Source: a bacterium (GTDB lineage: Bacteria > B130-G9). From it: a stretch of DNA of 36,793 nt. The position numbers were made by a program, and so were the translations under genes. The stretch covers positions 1-36,793 of the forward strand of contig JAGHCW010000133.1 in assembly GCA_021160245.1 (NCBI GenBank), read 5' to 3'. Below the pieces are notes generated by a model. That model was not told the origin of the DNA, did not search any database, and worked only from the letters and a program-made list of their open reading frames with translations. This document shows, piece by piece, positions 3,014-32,239 of this stretch (the stretch's first letter is position 1; every line of letters starts with the position of its first letter).

Positions 3014-4381
3014 TTGCAGACGACACACAAAATCGTATTCGGCGACAGCAGATGGATGAGAGAACTCGACGACGAATCCGTTCACCTCGTTGTAACCTCG
3101 CCGCCATACTGGCAGCTGAAGGACTACGGCGGCAAGGACCAGATCGGCTTCGACGACAGCTACGAGGACTACGTCAACAACCTCAACATCGTCTGGAAGG
3201 AGTGCGAGCGCGTCCTGCACAAGGGCTGTCGCCTCTGCGTGAACATCGGCGATCAGTTTGCGCGTGCAGCATACTACGGCAGATACAAGGTTATCCCAAT
3301 ACGCACCGAGATCATCCGATTCTGCGAGACTCTCGGCCTCGACTACATGGGAGCGGTGATATGGCAAAAAGTCACCACCTGCAACACCACAGGCGGCGCC
3401 TCGATCATGGGCTCCTACCCCTACCCGAGAAACGGGATCATCAAGGTTGATTACGAGTTCATACTCATCTTCAAAAAGCTCGGCGAGCCGCCAGAGATCG
3501 CAGACGAGGCGAAGAAGGCGTCGCAGTTGAGCCTCGTCGAGTGGAACGAGTATTTCTACGGTCACTGGAACTTCCCCGGCGAGCGCATCAAAAAAACCGC
3601 TTCCCACAAGAAGAAGCCTCGCCCAAGATTGCCGAAAACACCGTCTCCCTTCGCGAGCGGTTCCGACGTCAATCCGCAATCCGCAATCCGTAATCCGCAA
3701 TCGCTTGAACACATCGCCCCATTCCCCGAAGAGCTCCCAAAGCGCCTCATCAAGATGTTCACGTTCGTCGGCGACACGGTGCTCGATCCCTTCTTAGGAA
3801 GCGGCACGACGACGCTCGCTGCAAAGAACCTCGACCGCAGCTCAATTGGCTACGAGATCAACCCCGACTATCGAGCCATTGTCGAGCAGAAGACCGGCGC
3901 AAAGGAGATGACGGTCTTCGGAGGCGGCGTGAAGTTCAACTTCATAGAGCAGAAGGGGCCTCTACCCGAGCTTAAGGCCTCGCTCGACGCGTTGCCGTAC
4001 AGGTTCAAAGACCCGGTCAAGATGGCGCGCAAAATGGACCCGAGGACCAAGACTTACGGCTCGCGCATTCAGGCCGGCCAAGCGACTGAGATAGAGTTCT
4101 TCAAGGTCAAACGCGTCCACAGTCCGGTCCTTTTGGAGCTCGACGACGAGACAATAGTCCACCTGATTGGCTACAAACCCATCGAGGGCAAAGAGTCGGA
4201 GGTAACTGCCCTGCTAGAAAGCCTCGTTCGGGGCAAGAAGGTCTATCTAAAGCAATCCAAACGCTTCAAATACGACAGCAAAGGCAACCTCTTGGCCTAC
4301 ATCTATCTAGAGGACGACACGTTCGTCAACGCCGAGCTGATCAAGAGCGAGCTCGTTGATATTGATACGAGGTATGAGTGA
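3014..4381 (+). CDS. TSPPY-type DNA methyltransferase with C-terminal SNase-like domain
   Basis: The protein has 455 residues. Motif IV, TSPPYWQLKDYG (TSPPY at about 28-32), precedes the SAM-binding motif I, DPFLGSGTT (about 258-266), the order of beta-class amino-methyltransferases. SPPY is typical of N4-cytosine enzymes, though N6-adenine cannot be excluded. Residues about 220-231 (NPQSAIRNPQS) are encoded by a heptanucleotide repeat in a low-complexity linker. From about 355 to the end the sequence resembles a staphylococcal-nuclease OB fold, with LLAYIY and VNAELIKSELV close to the nuclease LAYIY and VNEALV. Of the catalytic triad only the Glu seems kept: the first Arg aligns with His and the second (after the Gly before LAYIY) with Asn. 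TTG 3014 has GAGG seven bases upstream. No restriction enzyme gene is adjacent, so it may be an orphan methyltransferase. Confidence 0.85.
   Translation: MQTTHKIVFGDSRWMRELDDESVHLVVTSPPYWQLKDYGGKDQIGFDDSYEDYVNNLNIVWKECERVLHKGCRLCVNIGDQFARAAYYGRYKVIPIRTEIIRFCETLGLDYMGAVIWQKVTTCNTTGGASIMGSYPYPRNGIIKVDYEFILIFKKLGEPPEIADEAKKASQLSLVEWNEYFYGHWNFPGERIKKTASHKKKPRPRLPKTPSPFASGSDVNPQSAIRNPQSLEHIAPFPEELPKRLIKMFTFVGDTVLDPFLGSGTTTLAAKNLDRSSIGYEINPDYRAIVEQKTGAKEMTVFGGGVKFNFIEQKGPLPELKASLDALPYRFKDPVKMARKMDPRTKTYGSRIQAGQATEIEFFKVKRVHSPVLLELDDETIVHLIGYKPIEGKESEVTALLESLVRGKKVYLKQSKRFKYDSKGNLLAYIYLEDDTFVNAELIKSELVDIDTRYE
3671..3704 (+). repeat. Heptanucleotide tandem repeat (AATCCGC) inside the methyltransferase gene
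   Basis: Four consecutive 7-bp units, AATCCGC, AATCCGC, AATCCGT and AATCCGC, run from 3671 to 3698 and are followed by a partial unit, AATCGC. Seven is not a multiple of three, so gain or loss of one unit would shift the frame before motif I and remove the SAM-binding half of the enzyme. Similar ATCCGCA repeats are scattered in many environmental genomes, so this may simply be a dispersed microsatellite that landed in a tolerant linker. Confidence 0.8.
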
Positions 4382-7298: not shown

Positions 7299-8057
7299 AT
7301 GGACCTCGCGACAATTATTGGCCTCTTGCTCGGTGGCGGGCTGGTCATCATGGCGATGGGGAGCTCAATCTCTTGTTTTATCGATATTCCATCGCTCATG
7401 ATCGTTGCCGGAGGGACGGTCGGCGCCGCGCTGATAAGTTTCCCGTTGAAGGACATGATCGGGGTGATAAAGGTCATCCAGAAGGCGGTTTTGGTTCAGA
7501 TCAAGTCGCCCGGGGACCTTGTGAAGCAGCTGGTTGGCTACTCACAGAAGGCCAGGAAGGACGGCATGCTCTCGCTAGAAAGCGTGACGAAGGAGATAGA
7601 CGATGTGTTCCTGCAGAAGGGCATAGGTCTTGCCATTGATGGAACACAGGCGGAGCTCGTCAAGGAAATACTTGAGACGGAGATGGACTACATCGGCGAG
7701 AGACACGGGGGTGGCGCGGCGATCATGGACGCGATGGGAAGTTATGCGCCGGCGTTCGGGATGGTCGGGACGTTGATTGGACTGATCTTGATGCTCCAGT
7801 CGATGGACGACCCGAGCTCAATCGGCCCGGCAATGGCGGTAGCATTGATAACCACGTTCTATGGAGCGCTTTTTGCTAATCTGATTTTCATACCGATTGG
7901 CGCAAAGCTAAAGAAGCGGTCGAAGGAGGAGCGGCTTCTCAAGGAGATGATCGTGGCCGGCATCATGTCGATTCTCAGTGGGGACAATCCGAGGTTGGTT
8001 GAGCAGAAGCTCAATACTTTCCTGCCTCCGACAGATCGGGTAACCTCATTCGACTAG
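7299..8057 (+). CDS. motA: Flagellar motor stator protein MotA
   Basis: This is the ion-channel subunit of the flagellar stator in the inner membrane. The 252-residue protein shows the MotA layout: two N-terminal membrane segments (about residues 1-25 and 30-52, the second being IPSLMIVAGGTVGAALISFP), a long cytoplasmic loop that contacts FliG, then two further segments. The third contains SYAPAFGMVGTLIGLILML, with the conserved Pro of the proton path, and the fourth is AVALITTFYGALFANLIFIP. A charged C-terminal tail follows. ATG 7299 has GGGAG and AGG sequences 7-11 bases upstream. It is the first gene of a block continuing with two motB-like genes, fliL, fliN and fliO. The 268 bases between it and the divergent pgi contain no gene and probably hold the promoter. 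Confidence 0.95.
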   Translation: MDLATIIGLLLGGGLVIMAMGSSISCFIDIPSLMIVAGGTVGAALISFPLKDMIGVIKVIQKAVLVQIKSPGDLVKQLVGYSQKARKDGMLSLESVTKEIDDVFLQKGIGLAIDGTQAELVKEILETEMDYIGERHGGGAAIMDAMGSYAPAFGMVGTLIGLILMLQSMDDPSSIGPAMAVALITTFYGALFANLIFIPIGAKLKKRSKEERLLKEMIVAGIMSILSGDNPRLVEQKLNTFLPPTDRVTSFD

Positions 8058-8161: not shown

Positions 8162-8914
8162 TTGGTTGAAGAAGAGAGCAATGCAGAGGAGCTTCCGGGC
8201 TGGGTGCCCCTTTTTACTTCTCTCATGATTCTCTTGTGCGCATTTTTTATTCTGCTTGTGGCTTACGCCTCATTCGATACGAAGAAGACGAAAGAGGCTA
8301 TCGGCTCTCTGCGCGGGACCTTCGGCGTTGCAGGAGGGGGCGTTCCCGGACTTCTCTCGGATGGAGCGGGAATTAGCCTCACCTCGAAGCCGATGAAGAA
8401 AGACGAGGCAGCGCAGAAGAGGCTTTCAATTAAGAAGCTAAAGGCCATCATAAAGTTCCAGGATTCACAGAAAGGGATTCGGGTGCAGAGCGATTCGGAG
8501 GGCCTTAGAATCGATGCGGCGGAACGAGTGATGTTCGACACGGGCTCCTTTGATCTGAAGCCCGCGTCCGAGGAATTCCTAACCTTAGTCGCCGATCTAA
8601 TGAAGTCCGCAGGCGTGCGCGCTGTAGTTGAGGGACACTGCGACTCTGAGGATATTGGTGCTATGACATGCGATTCGGGATGGGAGCTATCGCTATTGAG
8701 ATCGCTAGCTGTTACTTCGCTCCTGATTGCGAAGGATGTGGAACCTGCTCGCATCTCAAGTCAGGGCTATGGCCAATATCACCCGCTCTCAAAGCAGACC
8801 TCAGCCGAGGGAGGCTTTAACCGCCGAGTTACGATATTGCTGAAATTTCCCGACAAGGATAAACCGCTCTTGAAGGAAGCAACCAGAGATGGCGAAGAAG
8901 AAAAAAGCATCTGA
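8162..8914 (+). CDS. motB: MotB-like stator protein lacking the channel aspartate
   Basis: The 250-residue protein has one N-terminal membrane segment, a linker and a C-terminal OmpA-type peptidoglycan-binding domain (about residues 115-235; VMFDTGSFDLKP, VVEGHCDSED, SGWELSLLRSLAV, FNRRVTILL). In MotB the segment carries an Asp in the pattern xxxDxMTxxxxFF that relays protons or sodium. Here the segment reads VPLFTSLMILLCAFFILL, so Ser stands where Asp is expected and no Asp or Glu is in the membrane part. The next gene, a second MotB-like protein, has the Asp. The start is TTG 8162 after GGCGGGTAAG. It overlaps the following gene by 26 bases. It could be an accessory stator partner that heterodimerises with the next product, or a peptidoglycan-anchoring spacer. 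The paralogy is clear; the role is inference. Confidence 0.85.
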   Translation: MVEEESNAEELPGWVPLFTSLMILLCAFFILLVAYASFDTKKTKEAIGSLRGTFGVAGGGVPGLLSDGAGISLTSKPMKKDEAAQKRLSIKKLKAIIKFQDSQKGIRVQSDSEGLRIDAAERVMFDTGSFDLKPASEEFLTLVADLMKSAGVRAVVEGHCDSEDIGAMTCDSGWELSLLRSLAVTSLLIAKDVEPARISSQGYGQYHPLSKQTSAEGGFNRRVTILLKFPDKDKPLLKEATRDGEEEKSI

Positions 8915-9677
8915 AGGCGGAGCGAGCCAAGTATGGATGCTCACATTCTCGGATATGATGACGCTCCTGCTGACGTTTTTCGTTCTCTTGTTCTCCATGT
9001 CGTCAACCGACAGCGACGATCTGAATGAGGCGCTTACATCTCTCCAGGATTCGCTTTCAGTAATAGAGCTCGGAACGCTCAGTTTGAGCACATCTTCTCC
9101 GCCGCCTAAATGCACTCCGGTTATGACGGTGAAGCCCGGCCAGTTGATGGCCGCAGTGAATGAGATGAAGCAGTTCATCTCTCAAGAAGACCTCGATAGC
9201 GATGTTGATATCAAGAGCACGGAGCGTGGAATAGTGCTCTCAATTGGCGAGCAGGTTCTCTTCGATTCAGGCTCGACCGATGTGAAGGCATCATCTTATC
9301 CGCTATTGCATGAGATCGCGCGCAGTGCTGCCAGGCTTGCCAAGACCGTTAGAGTTGAGGGCAACTCCGATTCCACACCGTTTGCGGGCGACGGCCGGGG
9401 TTCAAACCTCGAGCTCTCGGGACGCCGGGCAATCAATGTGCTTCAGGTGATACTTGAGGAGAAGGTTCTAACTCCCCACGGCGCGAGTGTTGCTGCGCTC
9501 GGCGACTCACATCCCATCTATCCTGATGAGCAAACGGATGATGAGAGGCGTGCCAATCGCAGAGTAGATGTGTTCATCGTTGATCCGCCGGACGTGGAAT
9601 CTTTTTGGTATGCACTTATGAGCTCATATCTTGACAATGCTGAGGAGAAGCAGGAAGATGGTTTAAGTCCTGAATGA
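8889..9677 (+). CDS. motB: Flagellar motor stator protein MotB (canonical)
   Basis: The 262-residue protein has the expected basic N-terminus (MAKKKKASEGG) and a single membrane segment, WMLTFSDMMTLLLTFFVLLF, with the ion-carrying Asp at about residue 22. The periplasmic OmpA-like domain spans about residues 120-240 (VLFDSGSTDVKA, VEGNSDSTPF, NLELSGRRAINVL, DERRANRRVDVFIV) and anchors the stator to peptidoglycan. It pairs with MotA. Its ATG lies 26 bases inside the end of the preceding motB-like gene. An insert between the OmpA helices (EEKVLTPHGASVAALGDSHP) is ordinary for the family. Compared with the first MotB-like gene, the two proteins have clearly diverged outside the OmpA core, so the duplication is old or the genes are functionally distinct. 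Confidence 0.93.
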   Translation: MAKKKKASEGGASQVWMLTFSDMMTLLLTFFVLLFSMSSTDSDDLNEALTSLQDSLSVIELGTLSLSTSSPPPKCTPVMTVKPGQLMAAVNEMKQFISQEDLDSDVDIKSTERGIVLSIGEQVLFDSGSTDVKASSYPLLHEIARSAARLAKTVRVEGNSDSTPFAGDGRGSNLELSGRRAINVLQVILEEKVLTPHGASVAALGDSHPIYPDEQTDDERRANRRVDVFIVDPPDVESFWYALMSSYLDNAEEKQEDGLSPE

Positions 9678-9731
9678 ATATCTGTTAATGTGTGAGCGAG
9701 TTTTTAACAATCACACTTGAGGTGCTCTGAA

Positions 9732-10283
9732 TTGGCAGCTAAGAAGACGGACGCTGGCGCCGAGGGCAATGCACAACCCGTATCTGATGGCGCCGTTAAA
9801 AAGAAAGTGTCAATGGTAAAAATCCTGATTCTATTGATTATCGCCCTTGTGGTGCTCGGCGCCATCGTTGTGGGCGGTCTCTATGTTCTGACAGGGGTGA
9901 ATTCTCCTGAGACTGAGGAGGCCCAGGCCGAGCCAACGGAGGAGTCTAGCTCGTCCGAGGAAAGCTCCCCGACACTTAGCAAGGAGATCAGTACGCTAGA
10001 GCTAAAGCCCTTTGTGGTCAATCTTGCGGACAAGGGAACGTATCTGAAGATCACGATTGCTCTGGGGTATGGCGCAATTGAGAATGAGCAGCTCCTTCAG
10101 GACAAGATGACGAATGTGAGGGATTCCATCTTGACGGTGCTCTCGTCCAAGAGCGAGAAGACGCTATCCACAAAACACGGCAAGATGAAGCTCAAAGAGG
10201 ACATCAAGAAATCTCTGGGTCAATTGACAAGCATTGAGGGCGTCGTTACTTCCGTTTATTTCACGGACTTCCAGATTCTCTAG
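9732..10283 (+). CDS. fliL: Flagellar basal-body-associated protein FliL
   Basis: This is a single-pass inner-membrane protein that surrounds or supports the stator at the flagellar base. It has a short charged cytoplasmic part, a membrane segment at about residues 29-53 (MVKILILLIIALVVLGAIVV), an acidic Ser/Glu-rich linker (EEAQAEPTEESSSSEESSPT) and a C-terminal stomatin-like FliL domain. That domain runs from LKPFVVNLADKGTYLKITIA to VVTSVYFTDFQIL, the typical family ending. I start at TTG 9732, which has TGAGGTG seven bases upstream; the in-frame TTG at 9717 lies on that ribosome site and adds only MRCSE. The gene follows the second motB after 54 bases. Confidence 0.92.
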   Translation: MAAKKTDAGAEGNAQPVSDGAVKKKVSMVKILILLIIALVVLGAIVVGGLYVLTGVNSPETEEAQAEPTEESSSSEESSPTLSKEISTLELKPFVVNLADKGTYLKITIALGYGAIENEQLLQDKMTNVRDSILTVLSSKSEKTLSTKHGKMKLKEDIKKSLGQLTSIEGVVTSVYFTDFQIL

Positions 10284-10391
10284 CGATTGTATTCGGGCAC
10301 GCTGGGCTCTGAACGGGCTGACGAGAATAATGCAGGGCGGCCTGCAATTTAGCTCTTGCGTTATGATTTGATTGGGAGAGTAAAAGGACAG

Positions 10392-10712
10392 ATGGCCAAG
10401 ACATTGCGTTCCGCAGACGCCGATTCGGTTTCCAGGCCAATCGGGAATGTTGCCGAAGATTGGGATAGTGCTGAGATCACCTTTCTTTCCAATATCATCG
10501 TTCGTGCGTCAGTCATACTAGGCCGCACAACTATCACAATTCGGGATCTCTTGGAGCTGCAGCCCGGGAGCGTGATTGAGCTCAATAAACCGGTTGGCGA
10601 GGGGCTTGATTTTGTGATGAACGGAGCACCATTTGGCAAGGTCGATGTAACCGTCATCGAGGATACTTACGGGCTCCGTATTTCCGAGATCGTGAATCCC
10701 TTTGATGTGTAG
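10392..10712 (+). CDS. fliN: Flagellar motor switch protein FliN
   Basis: The 106-residue protein ends in a SpoA/FliN domain (about residues 35-105): an N-terminal VRASVILGRTTITIRDLLEL, then LQPGSVIELNKPVGEGLDFV and FGKVDVTVIEDTYGLRISEI. FliN forms the lower C-ring of the motor with FliM and FliG and binds export chaperone complexes. It is the short FliN form without a FliY-type phosphatase domain. ATG 10392 follows AAAGGACAG; an in-frame TTG at 10356 has no ribosome site. fliM, which usually lies between fliL and fliN, is missing here: only about 108 non-coding bases separate them. The end overlaps the proposed fliO start. Confidence 0.9.
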   Translation: MAKTLRSADADSVSRPIGNVAEDWDSAEITFLSNIIVRASVILGRTTITIRDLLELQPGSVIELNKPVGEGLDFVMNGAPFGKVDVTVIEDTYGLRISEIVNPFDV

Positions 10713-11325
10713 CGCTCCTCGGCAAGATACTACAAATGTCCGGTGTATGCGCGTGAGGGTTTTGCTCGCTCTGATCGCGGCCGTCGTCGTGATGTTCATC
10801 TATACAACGACCGTAACAGCTCAGGAAAACTACCTCGAGACAGAGCTCAAAGGCATATCAAACAACACCACGCCGGCCCAAGAACCCTCGCTAGCTCGGC
10901 TGAGCGTTAAGATGCTGATCGTCCTGATAATCATCGTCGGACTCATCATTGTGCTCGGCTTCGGACTCAAGAAGTTCATGAAGGGAAGACGCCTCGGGGC
11001 AGATAAGATCACGACTGTTCTCTCGGTTACTCACATCGTTGACCGCAAGTACGTCGCTATCATTGAGGTCTTGGGAAGGACGCTAATTATTGGCATTGGC
11101 GCGGACTCCGTAACACTCCTGTCGGAGATCAGCGCTCCATTTCTTTCAGAAACAGGAGATGGGCAAACTTCAAGCCCTGAGAGTGGCAACCCTCAGGAGG
11201 CTGCTCGGGACTTCACCCAAGTCCTGGGGGATAAGCTCTCCAATGAGAACGCCACAGACAATCCCTCTTTTCTGGAGGCCCTCTCCGATCAGGTCAAGAA
11301 GAAGATATCGCGCATCAAGCGATAG
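10705..11325 (+). CDS. fliO: Flagellar biosynthesis protein FliO
   Basis: FliO helps assemble the FliP ring of the flagellar export gate. The protein has a signal-peptide-like segment (MRVRVLLALIAAVVVMFIY, beginning at codon ATG 10747), a short extracytoplasmic stretch, a second membrane segment (VKMLIVLIIIVGLIIVLGFG) and a cytoplasmic FliO domain with LSVTHIVDRKYVAIIEVLGR and LIIGIGADSVTLLSEI. A long polar C-terminal tail ends in basic KKKISRIKR. ATG 10705 overlaps the fliN stop and would give coupled translation; ATG 10747 gives a cleaner signal peptide and is an equally good start. The genes fliP, fliQ and fliR, which normally follow, are not present downstream. Confidence 0.82.
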   Translation: MCSAPRQDTTNVRCMRVRVLLALIAAVVVMFIYTTTVTAQENYLETELKGISNNTTPAQEPSLARLSVKMLIVLIIIVGLIIVLGFGLKKFMKGRRLGADKITTVLSVTHIVDRKYVAIIEVLGRTLIIGIGADSVTLLSEISAPFLSETGDGQTSSPESGNPQEAARDFTQVLGDKLSNENATDNPSFLEALSDQVKKKISRIKR

Positions 11326-28012: not shown

Positions 28013-31000
28013 ATGAGATACAAATCTCTTCTTAGGACGATTCTGCTTTCCATTCTAACGGTCGTTTTCGCATCTTGCATGGCGCCCGATTGTCTGGCTG
28101 AGGAGGACGAGACTCCACCTGTGACGACGGGCCATACGGAGCCGGTGGGGAACGGCCCATCCATCACAGTGAGTTACAACTCTATCGATGAGCTGGGAAC
28201 CATAGCGAGCGTTCATCTCTATTATCGATACACCGATCTTGAAGGGAGCGGGGATGACACGCTGCAAGACACCGGACTTGAGAAGGCTCAAGGGTCTGGG
28301 GTCTTTGTCTGGGAGCCTGATTTAGGAGCCGGGCACTATCATTTCTTTCTGTCTGGAACGGACGAGGCGGGCAATGTTGAGGGGACTGATGGGGAGCCGG
28401 ATGCTAGTTGCCTGTTTGATCCGGCGCTTGCCCTTTCGACGCTACAGGCGCCTCCAAACGCATCGCGGGCCACAATCGGGCTGACATTCGCGATAGATGT
28501 GGGCGAGGATGGCTACGATAGCGTTGTGCTTCGGTATCGTTTTGACGAGAATCGCATCTCGGCGGATGAGGCCACTTGGGCGACGACAGCTATCATATCG
28601 AGCGCCACGTCCGGCACGCTGAATTTCACTTTTCCAGATGGAGACGGTTACTATCAGTTCCACACGAGAGCGAAAAGTGACAGCGGATATTGGGAGCCCA
28701 CGCCAGACACAGCAGACGCCACAACGCTCGCCGACAGCGAAGCGCCTCGTACATCACTGAGCGCTCCTTCTCTTGTTACGACATCGGAATTCACGCTTAC
28801 ATTCACGGCCTCTGATGAGTACAACGTCGATTCGGTTGACGTTTACCGTTGGTATGCAGGGCACTGGTCGCTGCTTTACACGACCTTCCGCACCACTGAG
28901 GGGACGCTGGAGTTCGACACAGAGGGCATGGAGGGCGAATATAGGTTTTACTCAATCGGGAGGGACTTGGCCGGTAACGTCGAGGAGCCTCCGGCTGAAG
29001 GGTCTGAAAGCACGGTAATTGTTGACCTGATGCCTCCTGTCTCCTGGGCCTTGGTGGACCCTTATGGGACGCAATTCCCGATTGTGGTGACTTTCGGGGC
29101 CGATGATGCCGTAACGGATGTTGTGAATGTTGACATCTTTGGAGGATATGATGGCGGCGATTTGACGGACACGGGGCTTTCCGGTGTTGGCCAGAGCGGC
29201 ACAATAGACTTCACCCCCGAGGTTCAGCTGGAGGGGTCTTATCAGTTCTCCACTCAGGCGATGGACGGAGTCGGCCACGTTGAGCCTATGCACCTGGGCC
29301 CAGATAGCGAGATAATAATTGACTGGACGGCGCCCGCATCAACGAGTATTGCCCCACATTATTCCACAGATTCGACGATATCGTTCTCCTTCATGTCATC
29401 TGACGCTGTGTCCGGAGTTAAATCAGTCTCCGCCTGGATCAACGTTGCCGGAGGCCCCTGGGCTGGAACTGGCTTGGCTGTGCCACCCGACGTGGGTCAG
29501 ATATCGATTGATCTGTCTGGTATGGGTGAGGGGACTTACGGGCTGTGCGCCCGGGCGATGGATTACGCCGGCAACGAGGAAGGTCTCCCGGCCGTCGCGC
29601 CAGTTAGCACTATCTACGATCCAACAGCCCCCGAGTCATACGCGGCGCTTCCACCTAGTGGCCTCATCACTAATTCCACACCTGTCGAGATACCGTATTT
29701 TGGCATCGACGCATCGAGTGGCATTAGCAAAGTCAATCTGCGGTTCAGGTTTGACGGCGGCAATTGGCAGGATTCCGAACTCGAAGACGTTCCGTCGGGA
29801 GCGGGGCCGGATTACCAGGGCAGCTTCGAATTCAACCCGCCACACGGCGATGGCATCTATGAGTTTGTCGTCATCTCACAGGATGCGGCCGGCAATCGTG
29901 AGATGTCTATCGATATGCCCGAGGGAGGCGTTCTGGTGTTTGACCAGACCGCGCCGGAGTCTTCCGCATCCTTCAATGGGGACTACGCCACCCAGTTCCC
30001 GATAAGCATATCCTTTGAGGCGAGCGATCTCACATCCGGCGTGGCGAGTGTTTCGCTCTGGGCGTCATATAATGGGGAAGAGTATCTCGAGGTGGGAGTC
30101 TCCGCATCGGCAACTATCGGGACGCTCTATTGGACGCCTGGCGCCCCCGCGGATGGCACGTATCGATTTTACGCCATCGCAACGGACGCGGCCGGCAATG
30201 TCGAGCCTGCTCCGGACGATCCGGACGCCTCGGTGGTATTCGACTCTGCGGCCCCGAGGTCGTCGGCGAGCACCTCGTCCGAGTTCACGAGCCAGCTGCC
30301 GATTCAGGTTTCGTTCAGCGCGGAGGATGACACGTCGGGCGTGTTTAACGTCCAACTGTGGGTGAAGAGAAACGACGGGGAGTTTGTGTCCGCCGGTCTG
30401 GTTTCTGAAGGCGCATCCGGCATATTTGAGTACAGTCCTGCGCCGCCCAGCGACGGCAGTTATTCATTCGCGACGCGAGGGATGGACCGGGCGGGTAACC
30501 TCGAGGCAGCGACTCAGATTGCCGACAGTTCGATTATACTCGATAGGACGGCGCCCGAATCGTCATGCTCGAGCGACTCTAACCTTGTGAACTCATTTCC
30601 GCTCAGCATTGACTACGTATCTTCAGACGCCGGCAGCGGCATCCAGAACATCAAGCTCTTCTTCAGGCTCGACGGGGGCCAATGGATCGAGGCGACAACG
30701 GCTTCCGAAGCGTCAGGAACGATGCTATTCAATCCGCCGGACGCGCTCGACGGCGCCTATGAGTTTTATACAATCGCGCATGATGTGGCCGGAAATGTTG
30801 AGGACTCGAACGGAGCGGACGCATCTGTTCTGGTCGATTCTGCGCCACCGAGCTCATCCGCATCATCGCCCAAGACCGTGGCGGCAGTCCCATTCAACGT
30901 GTCGTTCACAGCAAACGACGACGGCTCGGGCCCGGCGACCACTGCGCTGTGGGCTAGCTTTAATGGCGCCGACTGGGGCCCGACTGGCCTATCCGAGAGC

Positions 31001-32239
31001 GGAACTGCCGGGGAGTTTGTCTTCGAAGCCCCAAACGGCGAGGGCCAATATCGGTTCTATACAATATGCGAGGACACGGCCGGCAATGTCGAGGCGCCGC
31101 CAGCGGATGCGGACGCTACAACGGTCTATCACGTGCCAGAGCCGAGTATTCAGTCTGATAGAGGCCACGTTGACTTCGGGGAGGTTTTCGTGGGGAACCA
31201 GAAGAGCGCTACCGTGATAATCTCAAACGCAGGCGACGCTGACCTTGATATCCAAGAAATATCCGTCAGCCCGGCCGTCTTCTCGGCGCATGCCGCAGCT
31301 GGGCAATTACTCCCATTTGCGCTGTCCCCGAGTGATTCATTTGAGATCGAGGTGGTTTTCTCCCCGGACAATGCGGGAGAGTTCTCGGGCGAGCTGACGG
31401 TGCATTCAAACGACCCGGACTCGGCGCGCCTCGATATAACTCTCAATGGATCGGGAACCGTGACGCGCGAATTCAGGATGGCCGTGTCCACGAATTCGGA
31501 CTTGTATGAGTTTGGCGACACGCTGCAGATCGACGTTGACGTCTTGAACGCCTCCGACACTGTCACGGCGGACGTTTATCTCGTGCTGACGTTCGATCTG
31601 GGCGGGCCTGACGAGGCTTCCTTTTCTGCTACGTTAGGCGGCGATTGGGTTGATGGCATTTTGCCGTTCGCGGCCGGTTTGGGGGTTCCTTCTGGTTTCC
31701 AATTCGCCGGGACCTGGTGGTCTCATAGTCTCCCCTGCTATCTGCCGGCGCTGTCGAGATCGGGTTTATATACTCTCAGGATGGCCGCAATAGACACATA
31801 TACATTTGACTTTGCATCCAACTTAGCGGTGTCCGAGTTTACGCTTGAAGGCGAGCCGTTTGTGGGCATATTCACGGACAAAGACGTCTATTCGCCCTCG
31901 GATACTAAAGCACAGATTTCTCTCGACGTCTCTCTACCGGATTACGAGATTACGGCAGATTTCTACATCTCGCTAATCGGCCCTGACGGCCAATTGTGGT
32001 TCCCAAATGGCTTTGGAGAAGACGTCGTATGGTCGCCTGATGTCGCATCGCTTGTCCCGAATGTCACGCTGCCGTCAGGATTTTCCTTTTCGACCGTGAT
32101 CTTCGAATCAAGACTTCACACTAAGACTCCATTTGATAGCGCCGGCGAATATGTGCTTCTTGTCGCCTTGGTTGAGCCGAACTCGCTTGTTCCCCTCTCC
32201 GACATCGGCCAGACGCTTTTCGGTTTGCAGAAATGGTAA
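28013..32239 (+). CDS. Giant secreted Ig-like repeat protein with ASH-type and unnamed C-terminal domains
   Basis: The 1408-residue protein starts with a signal peptide (residues 1-30); FASC could be a weak lipobox, otherwise cleavage after CLA is likely. Ten tandem Ig-like repeats of about 97-105 residues follow (about 34-1040). Each begins TAPESS or similar and ends in a YxFxxxAxDxAGNVE pattern, as in DGTYRFYAIATDAAGNVEPA. Residues about 1042-1150 form an ASH/choice-of-anchor-D-type domain (HVDFGEVFVGNQKSATVIIS, VVFSPDNAGEFSGELTVHSN). The last 255 residues are two copies of the unnamed domain found in two other secreted proteins here (TNSDLYEFGD at about 1160; TDKDVYSPSD at about 1287). No C-terminal sorting signal is visible. 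ATG 28013 has GGAGG eight bases upstream. A role in surface adhesion or matrix is plausible but unproven. Confidence 0.9.
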   Translation: MRYKSLLRTILLSILTVVFASCMAPDCLAEEDETPPVTTGHTEPVGNGPSITVSYNSIDELGTIASVHLYYRYTDLEGSGDDTLQDTGLEKAQGSGVFVWEPDLGAGHYHFFLSGTDEAGNVEGTDGEPDASCLFDPALALSTLQAPPNASRATIGLTFAIDVGEDGYDSVVLRYRFDENRISADEATWATTAIISSATSGTLNFTFPDGDGYYQFHTRAKSDSGYWEPTPDTADATTLADSEAPRTSLSAPSLVTTSEFTLTFTASDEYNVDSVDVYRWYAGHWSLLYTTFRTTEGTLEFDTEGMEGEYRFYSIGRDLAGNVEEPPAEGSESTVIVDLMPPVSWALVDPYGTQFPIVVTFGADDAVTDVVNVDIFGGYDGGDLTDTGLSGVGQSGTIDFTPEVQLEGSYQFSTQAMDGVGHVEPMHLGPDSEIIIDWTAPASTSIAPHYSTDSTISFSFMSSDAVSGVKSVSAWINVAGGPWAGTGLAVPPDVGQISIDLSGMGEGTYGLCARAMDYAGNEEGLPAVAPVSTIYDPTAPESYAALPPSGLITNSTPVEIPYFGIDASSGISKVNLRFRFDGGNWQDSELEDVPSGAGPDYQGSFEFNPPHGDGIYEFVVISQDAAGNREMSIDMPEGGVLVFDQTAPESSASFNGDYATQFPISISFEASDLTSGVASVSLWASYNGEEYLEVGVSASATIGTLYWTPGAPADGTYRFYAIATDAAGNVEPAPDDPDASVVFDSAAPRSSASTSSEFTSQLPIQVSFSAEDDTSGVFNVQLWVKRNDGEFVSAGLVSEGASGIFEYSPAPPSDGSYSFATRGMDRAGNLEAATQIADSSIILDRTAPESSCSSDSNLVNSFPLSIDYVSSDAGSGIQNIKLFFRLDGGQWIEATTASEASGTMLFNPPDALDGAYEFYTIAHDVAGNVEDSNGADASVLVDSAPPSSSASSPKTVAAVPFNVSFTANDDGSGPATTALWASFNGADWGPTGLSESGTAGEFVFEAPNGEGQYRFYTICEDTAGNVEAPPADADATTVYHVPEPSIQSDRGHVDFGEVFVGNQKSATVIISNAGDADLDIQEISVSPAVFSAHAAAGQLLPFALSPSDSFEIEVVFSPDNAGEFSGELTVHSNDPDSARLDITLNGSGTVTREFRMAVSTNSDLYEFGDTLQIDVDVLNASDTVTADVYLVLTFDLGGPDEASFSATLGGDWVDGILPFAAGLGVPSGFQFAGTWWSHSLPCYLPALSRSGLYTLRMAAIDTYTFDFASNLAVSEFTLEGEPFVGIFTDKDVYSPSDTKAQISLDVSLPDYEITADFYISLIGPDGQLWFPNGFGEDVVWSPDVASLVPNVTLPSGFSFSTVIFESRLHTKTPFDSAGEYVLLVALVEPNSLVPLSDIGQTLFGLQKW

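Follow-up and report, generated by a model that had tools for sequence, protein, structure and literature searches.

A MotB-type protein without the ion-binding aspartate, encoded between motA and an aspartate-bearing motB, as a candidate partner in a one-site flagellar stator

Flagellar stators of the MotAB and PomAB kind are complexes of composition MotA5MotB2, in which two Asp sites are thought to alternate so that the complex steps 36 degrees per ion and passes 10 ions per turn; a consumption of 5 ions per turn would, according to the same review, require an entirely new model (PMC9389320). Here we describe a locus in a 36,793 nt stretch of bacterial DNA (the window: contig JAGHCW010000133.1 of assembly GCA_021160245.1, GTDB lineage B130-G9), in which a single motA is followed by two different MotB-type genes. 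The product of the first, which we call B', lacks the ion-binding aspartate, and that of the second, B, retains it. The locus resembles those of MotAB and PomAB in having one motA, MotB-type helices, a plug, an OmpA-like domain and an operon with fliL and fliN, but it differs from them in encoding two different B subunits; in all relatives that we examined, one of the two lacks the ion-binding Asp.

The nearest precedent that we have found is Aquifex aeolicus, in which one motA is likewise followed in an operon by two genes, motB1 and motB2, whose products are 97% identical in their N-terminal and membrane regions (PMC4525482). The window is not of this type, as its B' and B share only about 26% identity and have Ser and Asp, respectively, in the membrane helix, whereas Asp was present in both MotBs of the Aquificota-type loci that we read. 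One such locus, from the Hydrogenothermaceae genome that also holds L057, encodes tandem MotBs behind one motA, both with Asp, in the manner of A. aeolicus (L361, 1645–2340 and 925–1641). The gliding machinery AglR-AglQ-AglS of Myxococcus also combines one A subunit with two B subunits, and whether the latter form a heterodimer is stated to be unknown (PMC9389320). It differs from the window in that AglQ and AglS are both described with a membrane aspartate and belong to a non-flagellar stator (PMC9389320). The open-access papers searched contained no account of a MotB pair in which only one member keeps the Asp, although most subscription papers and bioRxiv lay outside this search and an earlier description is possible.

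The motA-B'-B locus and the missing aspartate

All features are given on the forward strand. The motA gene (7299–8057) encodes a PomA/MotP-like stator A subunit of 252 aa (PF01618, E 8.7e-30; 272 bits with the NCBIfam PomA model, a score under the cut-off of that model), and it is the MotA_ExbB family member that adjoins the MotB genes. B' (8162–8914; 250 aa) has a TTG start codon where its relatives use ATG at the same place, and B (8889–9677) encodes 262 aa. Both proteins score above the Pfam gathering scores for MotB_plug (PF13677; 32.9 bits for B' and 68.5 bits for B) and OmpA (PF00691; 54 and 45.5 bits), with the domains in order. The 26-base overlap of the two genes behind one motA, already reported in a first-pass annotation of this DNA, lies at 8889–8914; an identical overlap of 26 bases is found by open reading frame coordinates in two related genomes (G002 and G001), which suggests translational coupling.

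The transmembrane helix of B' (residues 14–36, 8201–8269) was predicted as a helix by AlphaFold and reads WVPLFTSLMILLCAFFILLVAY. It contains no D, E, K, R or H, and the nearest acidic residues, E9 and E10, lie on the cytosolic side of W14. Alignments place Ser20 (codon TCT, 8219–8221) at the position of the ion-binding Asp and pair it with Asp22 of B (codon GAT, 8952–8954), which would be the single ion site of a B/B' pair. The first-pass annotation had thus been right that the first MotB carries Ser in place of Asp with no acidic residue elsewhere in the helix, and that the second is normal in this respect; a search of the alignment for another acidic residue in the pore helix found none. 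B has the characters of a MotB, namely Asp22 in the helix, MotB_plug, OmpA and a neighbouring motA. B' shares the flagellar operon setting, with motA upstream and fliL, fliN and fliO downstream, and departs from MotB and PomB proteins in the membrane-helix Asp, in place of which each of the four genomes from the window's phylum has Ser20 and relatives have S, A, T or C.

The phylum was sampled by four genomes from three genera, and the order motA-B'-B with Ser at the Asp position was present in 4/4. Because the same Ser arrangement is found in the three genomes other than that of the window, an assembly error is excluded. Overall identity of B' within the phylum is 50–53%, and the membrane helix is the most conserved portion of the protein: 21 of the 25 residues from 11 to 35 are invariant, with a mean pairwise identity of 0.92. 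The corresponding values are 0.36 in the linker of B', 0.62 in its periplasmic domain and 0.95 in the same membrane stretch of B. Conservation of this kind is as expected for a helix packed in the MotA ring. The ratio of non-synonymous to synonymous substitution rates (dN/dS) between G001 and G002 was about 0.26–0.31 for B', 0.23–0.26 for B and 0.06 for motA. Judged by these comparisons, B' is being maintained, and the constraint on its membrane helix is about as strong as in a working MotB.

The remainder of B' was examined in an AlphaFold model of the single chain, built on a 54-row alignment. In addition to the membrane helix, the model (mean predicted local distance difference test score 84.6) has a plug-region helix (residues 40–54, 8279–8323; PF13677 spans residues 8–54), a linker helix (residues 80–102) and an OmpA-like peptidoglycan-binding domain (residues 106–228, 8477–8845). 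The nearest solved structures in a Foldseek search of the PDB were the periplasmic domains of MotS and MotB. Asp161 and Arg180 of this domain are both retained in the window; among B' rows D161 is kept in 15/25 and R180 in 25/25, and Arg180 is invariant across all 54 MotB and B' rows. The model thus indicates that the peptidoglycan-binding fold of B' is kept, which agrees with the earlier description of its OmpA domain as intact.

Occurrence of paired MotB proteins across bacteria

We surveyed 386 genomes across the bacterial domain, reading loci for the stronger matches only, with duplicates removed; weak MotB matches were inspected in part. Where motA was accompanied by one MotB only, in 96 loci, the Asp was always encoded. 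The 32 tandem loci comprised 21 in which one MotB bears the Asp and the other lacks it (four of them from the window's phylum), 11 with Asp in both (D/D; one of these, L284, being two divergent stators that lie adjacent rather than a true tandem) and none without any Asp. No Asp-less MotB stood alone beside motA among the surveyed loci; for a single Asp-less copy, L287, the stretch read contained no motA. Further pairs were added by phylum- and class-level searches around G316, G239, G216, G050 and G206, which drew on separate genome sets, none overlapping the window's phylum. Pairs of B and B' accordingly occur in at least six phyla (the window's and five or more others), and the arrangement is widespread and recurrent, not an oddity of one genome.

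Among the pairs are two large groups. The first, to which the window belongs in whole-protein trees, has the order motA-B'-B, a B' helix of about FTVLFTSLSIILLAFFILLNS, and S, A, T or C at the Asp position. In most of its loci fliL and fliN follow, as in the window; many of the phyla with pairs show the order motA-B'-B-fliL-(fliM)-fliN. The second group has the order motA-B-B', a helix of about TFIALMLLLLCFMVIMVSLAQ and A or S at this position. Among 25 B' rows of the two groups the residue was Ser in nine, Ala in nine, Thr in five and Cys in two, with Asp present in all 29 B rows; Asp was looked for in relatives of B' and was never present. So uniform a choice of small uncharged residues suggests selection and not decay. 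A third, loose set (G069, G074, G344; L179, L181, L286, L287), in which N or T occurs in a copy after an Asp-bearing MotB, is less like the window, and G074 has an extra Asn-type copy on another contig with no motA in the stretch read. The Desulfovibrio vulgaris gene for an 'OmpA family protein' between motA and motB may belong among these pairs.

Tandems of the D/D type occur in several lineages (L176/L177, L223/L224, L175/L222, L183, L221 and L225), so that duplication of motB behind one motA is common. A search of twenty named genomes found Asp-bearing MotBs only. Plasmid searches returned MotBs of low identity, and the three loci inspected (two single-MotB loci and one unannotated record) contained no tandem relative of B'.

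How often the Asp was lost was addressed with trees. Those of whole proteins placed the window B' within the first group with support of 95–96 (Shimodaira-Hasegawa-like approximate likelihood ratio test) and needed 3–4 changes; when the membrane and plug region was removed the first group was not recovered, yet it was not rejected either (approximately unbiased (AU) test, P=0.475). A single origin was likewise not rejected by AU tests, either when the first two groups were joined (0.91) or when every Asp-less MotB was included (0.68). We therefore dropped an account with three independent Asp losses, as the tree without the membrane region misses the first class and the AU tests allow one origin; anything from one to several origins is possible on these trees.

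A one-site stator and its alternatives

On balance we think it probable, from sequence comparison, that motA, B' and B together specify a single flagellar stator, MotA5-B-B', with a heterodimeric axle and one ion site. We favour this reading because of the strict co-occurrence of the two genes, the small neutral residues of B', the conservation of its helix and the reciprocal core sizes described below. More tentatively, such a stator would drive the flagellum in several phyla as a natural 5:2 motor that has one ion site, uses about 5 ions for each ring turn and advances in 72-degree steps, B' being a permanently neutral arm of the axle. In such a complex B would contribute the only ion-binding aspartate, and the small neutral residue of B' (Ser in the window, elsewhere Ala, Thr or Cys) would mimic a 'protonated' site at all times, while B' would still fill the MotA ring, bear a plug helix and anchor to peptidoglycan. 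Each turn of the MotA ring would then take about 5 ions through MotA5-B-B' in place of 10, or one per 72 degrees. One published model has rotation occur only when both sites are neutral (described in PMC9389320); by our reasoning, it would still allow a B/B' axle to turn, again at about 5 ions per turn. The sequences themselves show how the genes and residues are arranged, that they are conserved, co-occur and evolve under purifying selection, and, by prediction, the periplasmic fold; the heterodimer, the single ion path and the step size are inferred.

The residues at the core of the axle were compared at the MotB-MotB coiled-coil positions published for Escherichia coli (PMC10659934). B and B' differ in residue size at these positions, where the partners of D/D tandems hardly differ. 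At D+9, Phe is present in 96/96 lone MotBs, and in the second group it gives way to Tyr in 3/4 B and Met in 4/4 B'; at D+2, most second-group pairs have a large residue in one partner and a small one in the other. Scoring volume deviation across all core positions did not work, as D+9 is invariant among lone MotBs, and the per-position comparison was used in its place. The contrast of acidic and basic N-termini as a driver of heterodimer formation fits the window's phylum and not others, and we gave it up as an argument for the pairs in general.

Several points weigh against a one-site heterodimer. Published 5:2 motor models rely on two exchanging aspartates (PMC9389320; PMC10659934), so a one-site motor may stall. 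Homodimers of B could make up the working stator, and several other pair-bearing genomes also have ordinary stators. In the window itself size complementarity is weak (core residues SMLFF versus TMCFV), and P-values for the size differences ignore shared ancestry, the independent lineages being few. The first-pass annotation had offered a heterodimer as one reading of the two genes and had suggested a survey of co-occurrence; functional pairing of the two proteins now has the support of that survey, as Asp-less MotBs stood beside motA only together with an Asp-bearing MotB (21 tandems, against 0/96 lone MotBs), and it is the step from pairing to heterodimer that stays conjectural.

It is also conceivable, though in our view unlikely, that B' assembles with MotA into a non-conducting MotA5-B'2, which would act as a passive stator or a brake and vie with MotA5-B2 for places around the rotor. 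Dominant-negative dead stators are known among laboratory mutants, the B' helix is conserved like one that contacts MotA, and the gene overlap would hold the ratio constant. However, an obligate inactive stator would waste torque in genomes without another stator locus, and the reciprocal changes in B and B' core residues are not predicted by it. We give less credence to the proposal, raised in the first-pass annotation, that B' sits near the stator as a passive anchor in the peptidoglycan, or as a scaffold, without entering the MotA ring. Its intact peptidoglycan-binding fold would suit this role, and accessory periplasmic proteins such as MotK and MotE exist in other motors (PMC13023049), yet an anchor would need neither a MotB-like helix nor a plug conserved as in B, and B' is tied to motA and an Asp-bearing motB. 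Conservation of the B' helix and the reciprocal sizes thus favour the heterodimer over the anchor. That B and B' can exchange among homo- and heterodimers, so that the cell would use their ratio to tune how many ion sites a stator has on average, seems improbable: the two share an operon and their identity of about 26% would permit partly independent pairing, but strict pairing and a small neutral residue throughout the two large groups better suit an obligate partner. Decay of a functionless motB duplicate, for which loss of an essential Asp is the expected look in any one genome, has next to no chance of being correct, contradicted as it already is by an open frame and helix conserved over three genera, recurrence in other phyla, the dN/dS of about 0.26–0.31 and the constant S, A, T or C of the large groups.

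In current models of 5:2 motors the two ion sites are taken to be equivalent, with 10 ions passing in each turn. If MotA5-B-B' is indeed formed, a natural one-site stator would test the idea of five ions per turn directly, without recourse to mutants that break the motor. It would also mean that nature has selected asymmetric axles, which balance ion cost against torque in a different way.

Flagellar context and other features of the window

The gene order in the window is a single motA, B', B, fliL (9717–10283; PF03748, E 5.8e-20), fliN (10356–10712; PF01052, E 9.9e-20) and fliO (10702–11325; PF04347, E 9.9e-10). FliG was found on a separate contig of the same genome, which has five more MotA/ExbB-family places outside the motA-B'-B locus; a search across this genome for a second place with MotB_plug found none. 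Since no other MotB_plug locus is present and FliG, FliL, FliN and FliO are, the motA-B'-B set must power the flagellum if the flagellum turns.

In the window fliL stands directly before a short fliN (118 aa) and fliO, without fliM between them (9717–11325), and at L216 and L235 a FliM/FliN-like gene sits between fliL and fliN. Residues 234–262 of B form a C-terminal tail, DPPDxESFWYALMxSYLxN, which has a mean identity of 0.71 in the phylum and is absent from B'. Elsewhere in the window, a DNA methylase (N6_N4_Mtase) is encoded at 3014–4381, the C-terminal part of which weakly resembles a staphylococcal nuclease domain at a score below the cut-off, and the region 28013–32239 encodes a protein of 1408 aa with bacterial Ig-like and ASH/HYDIN-type domains.
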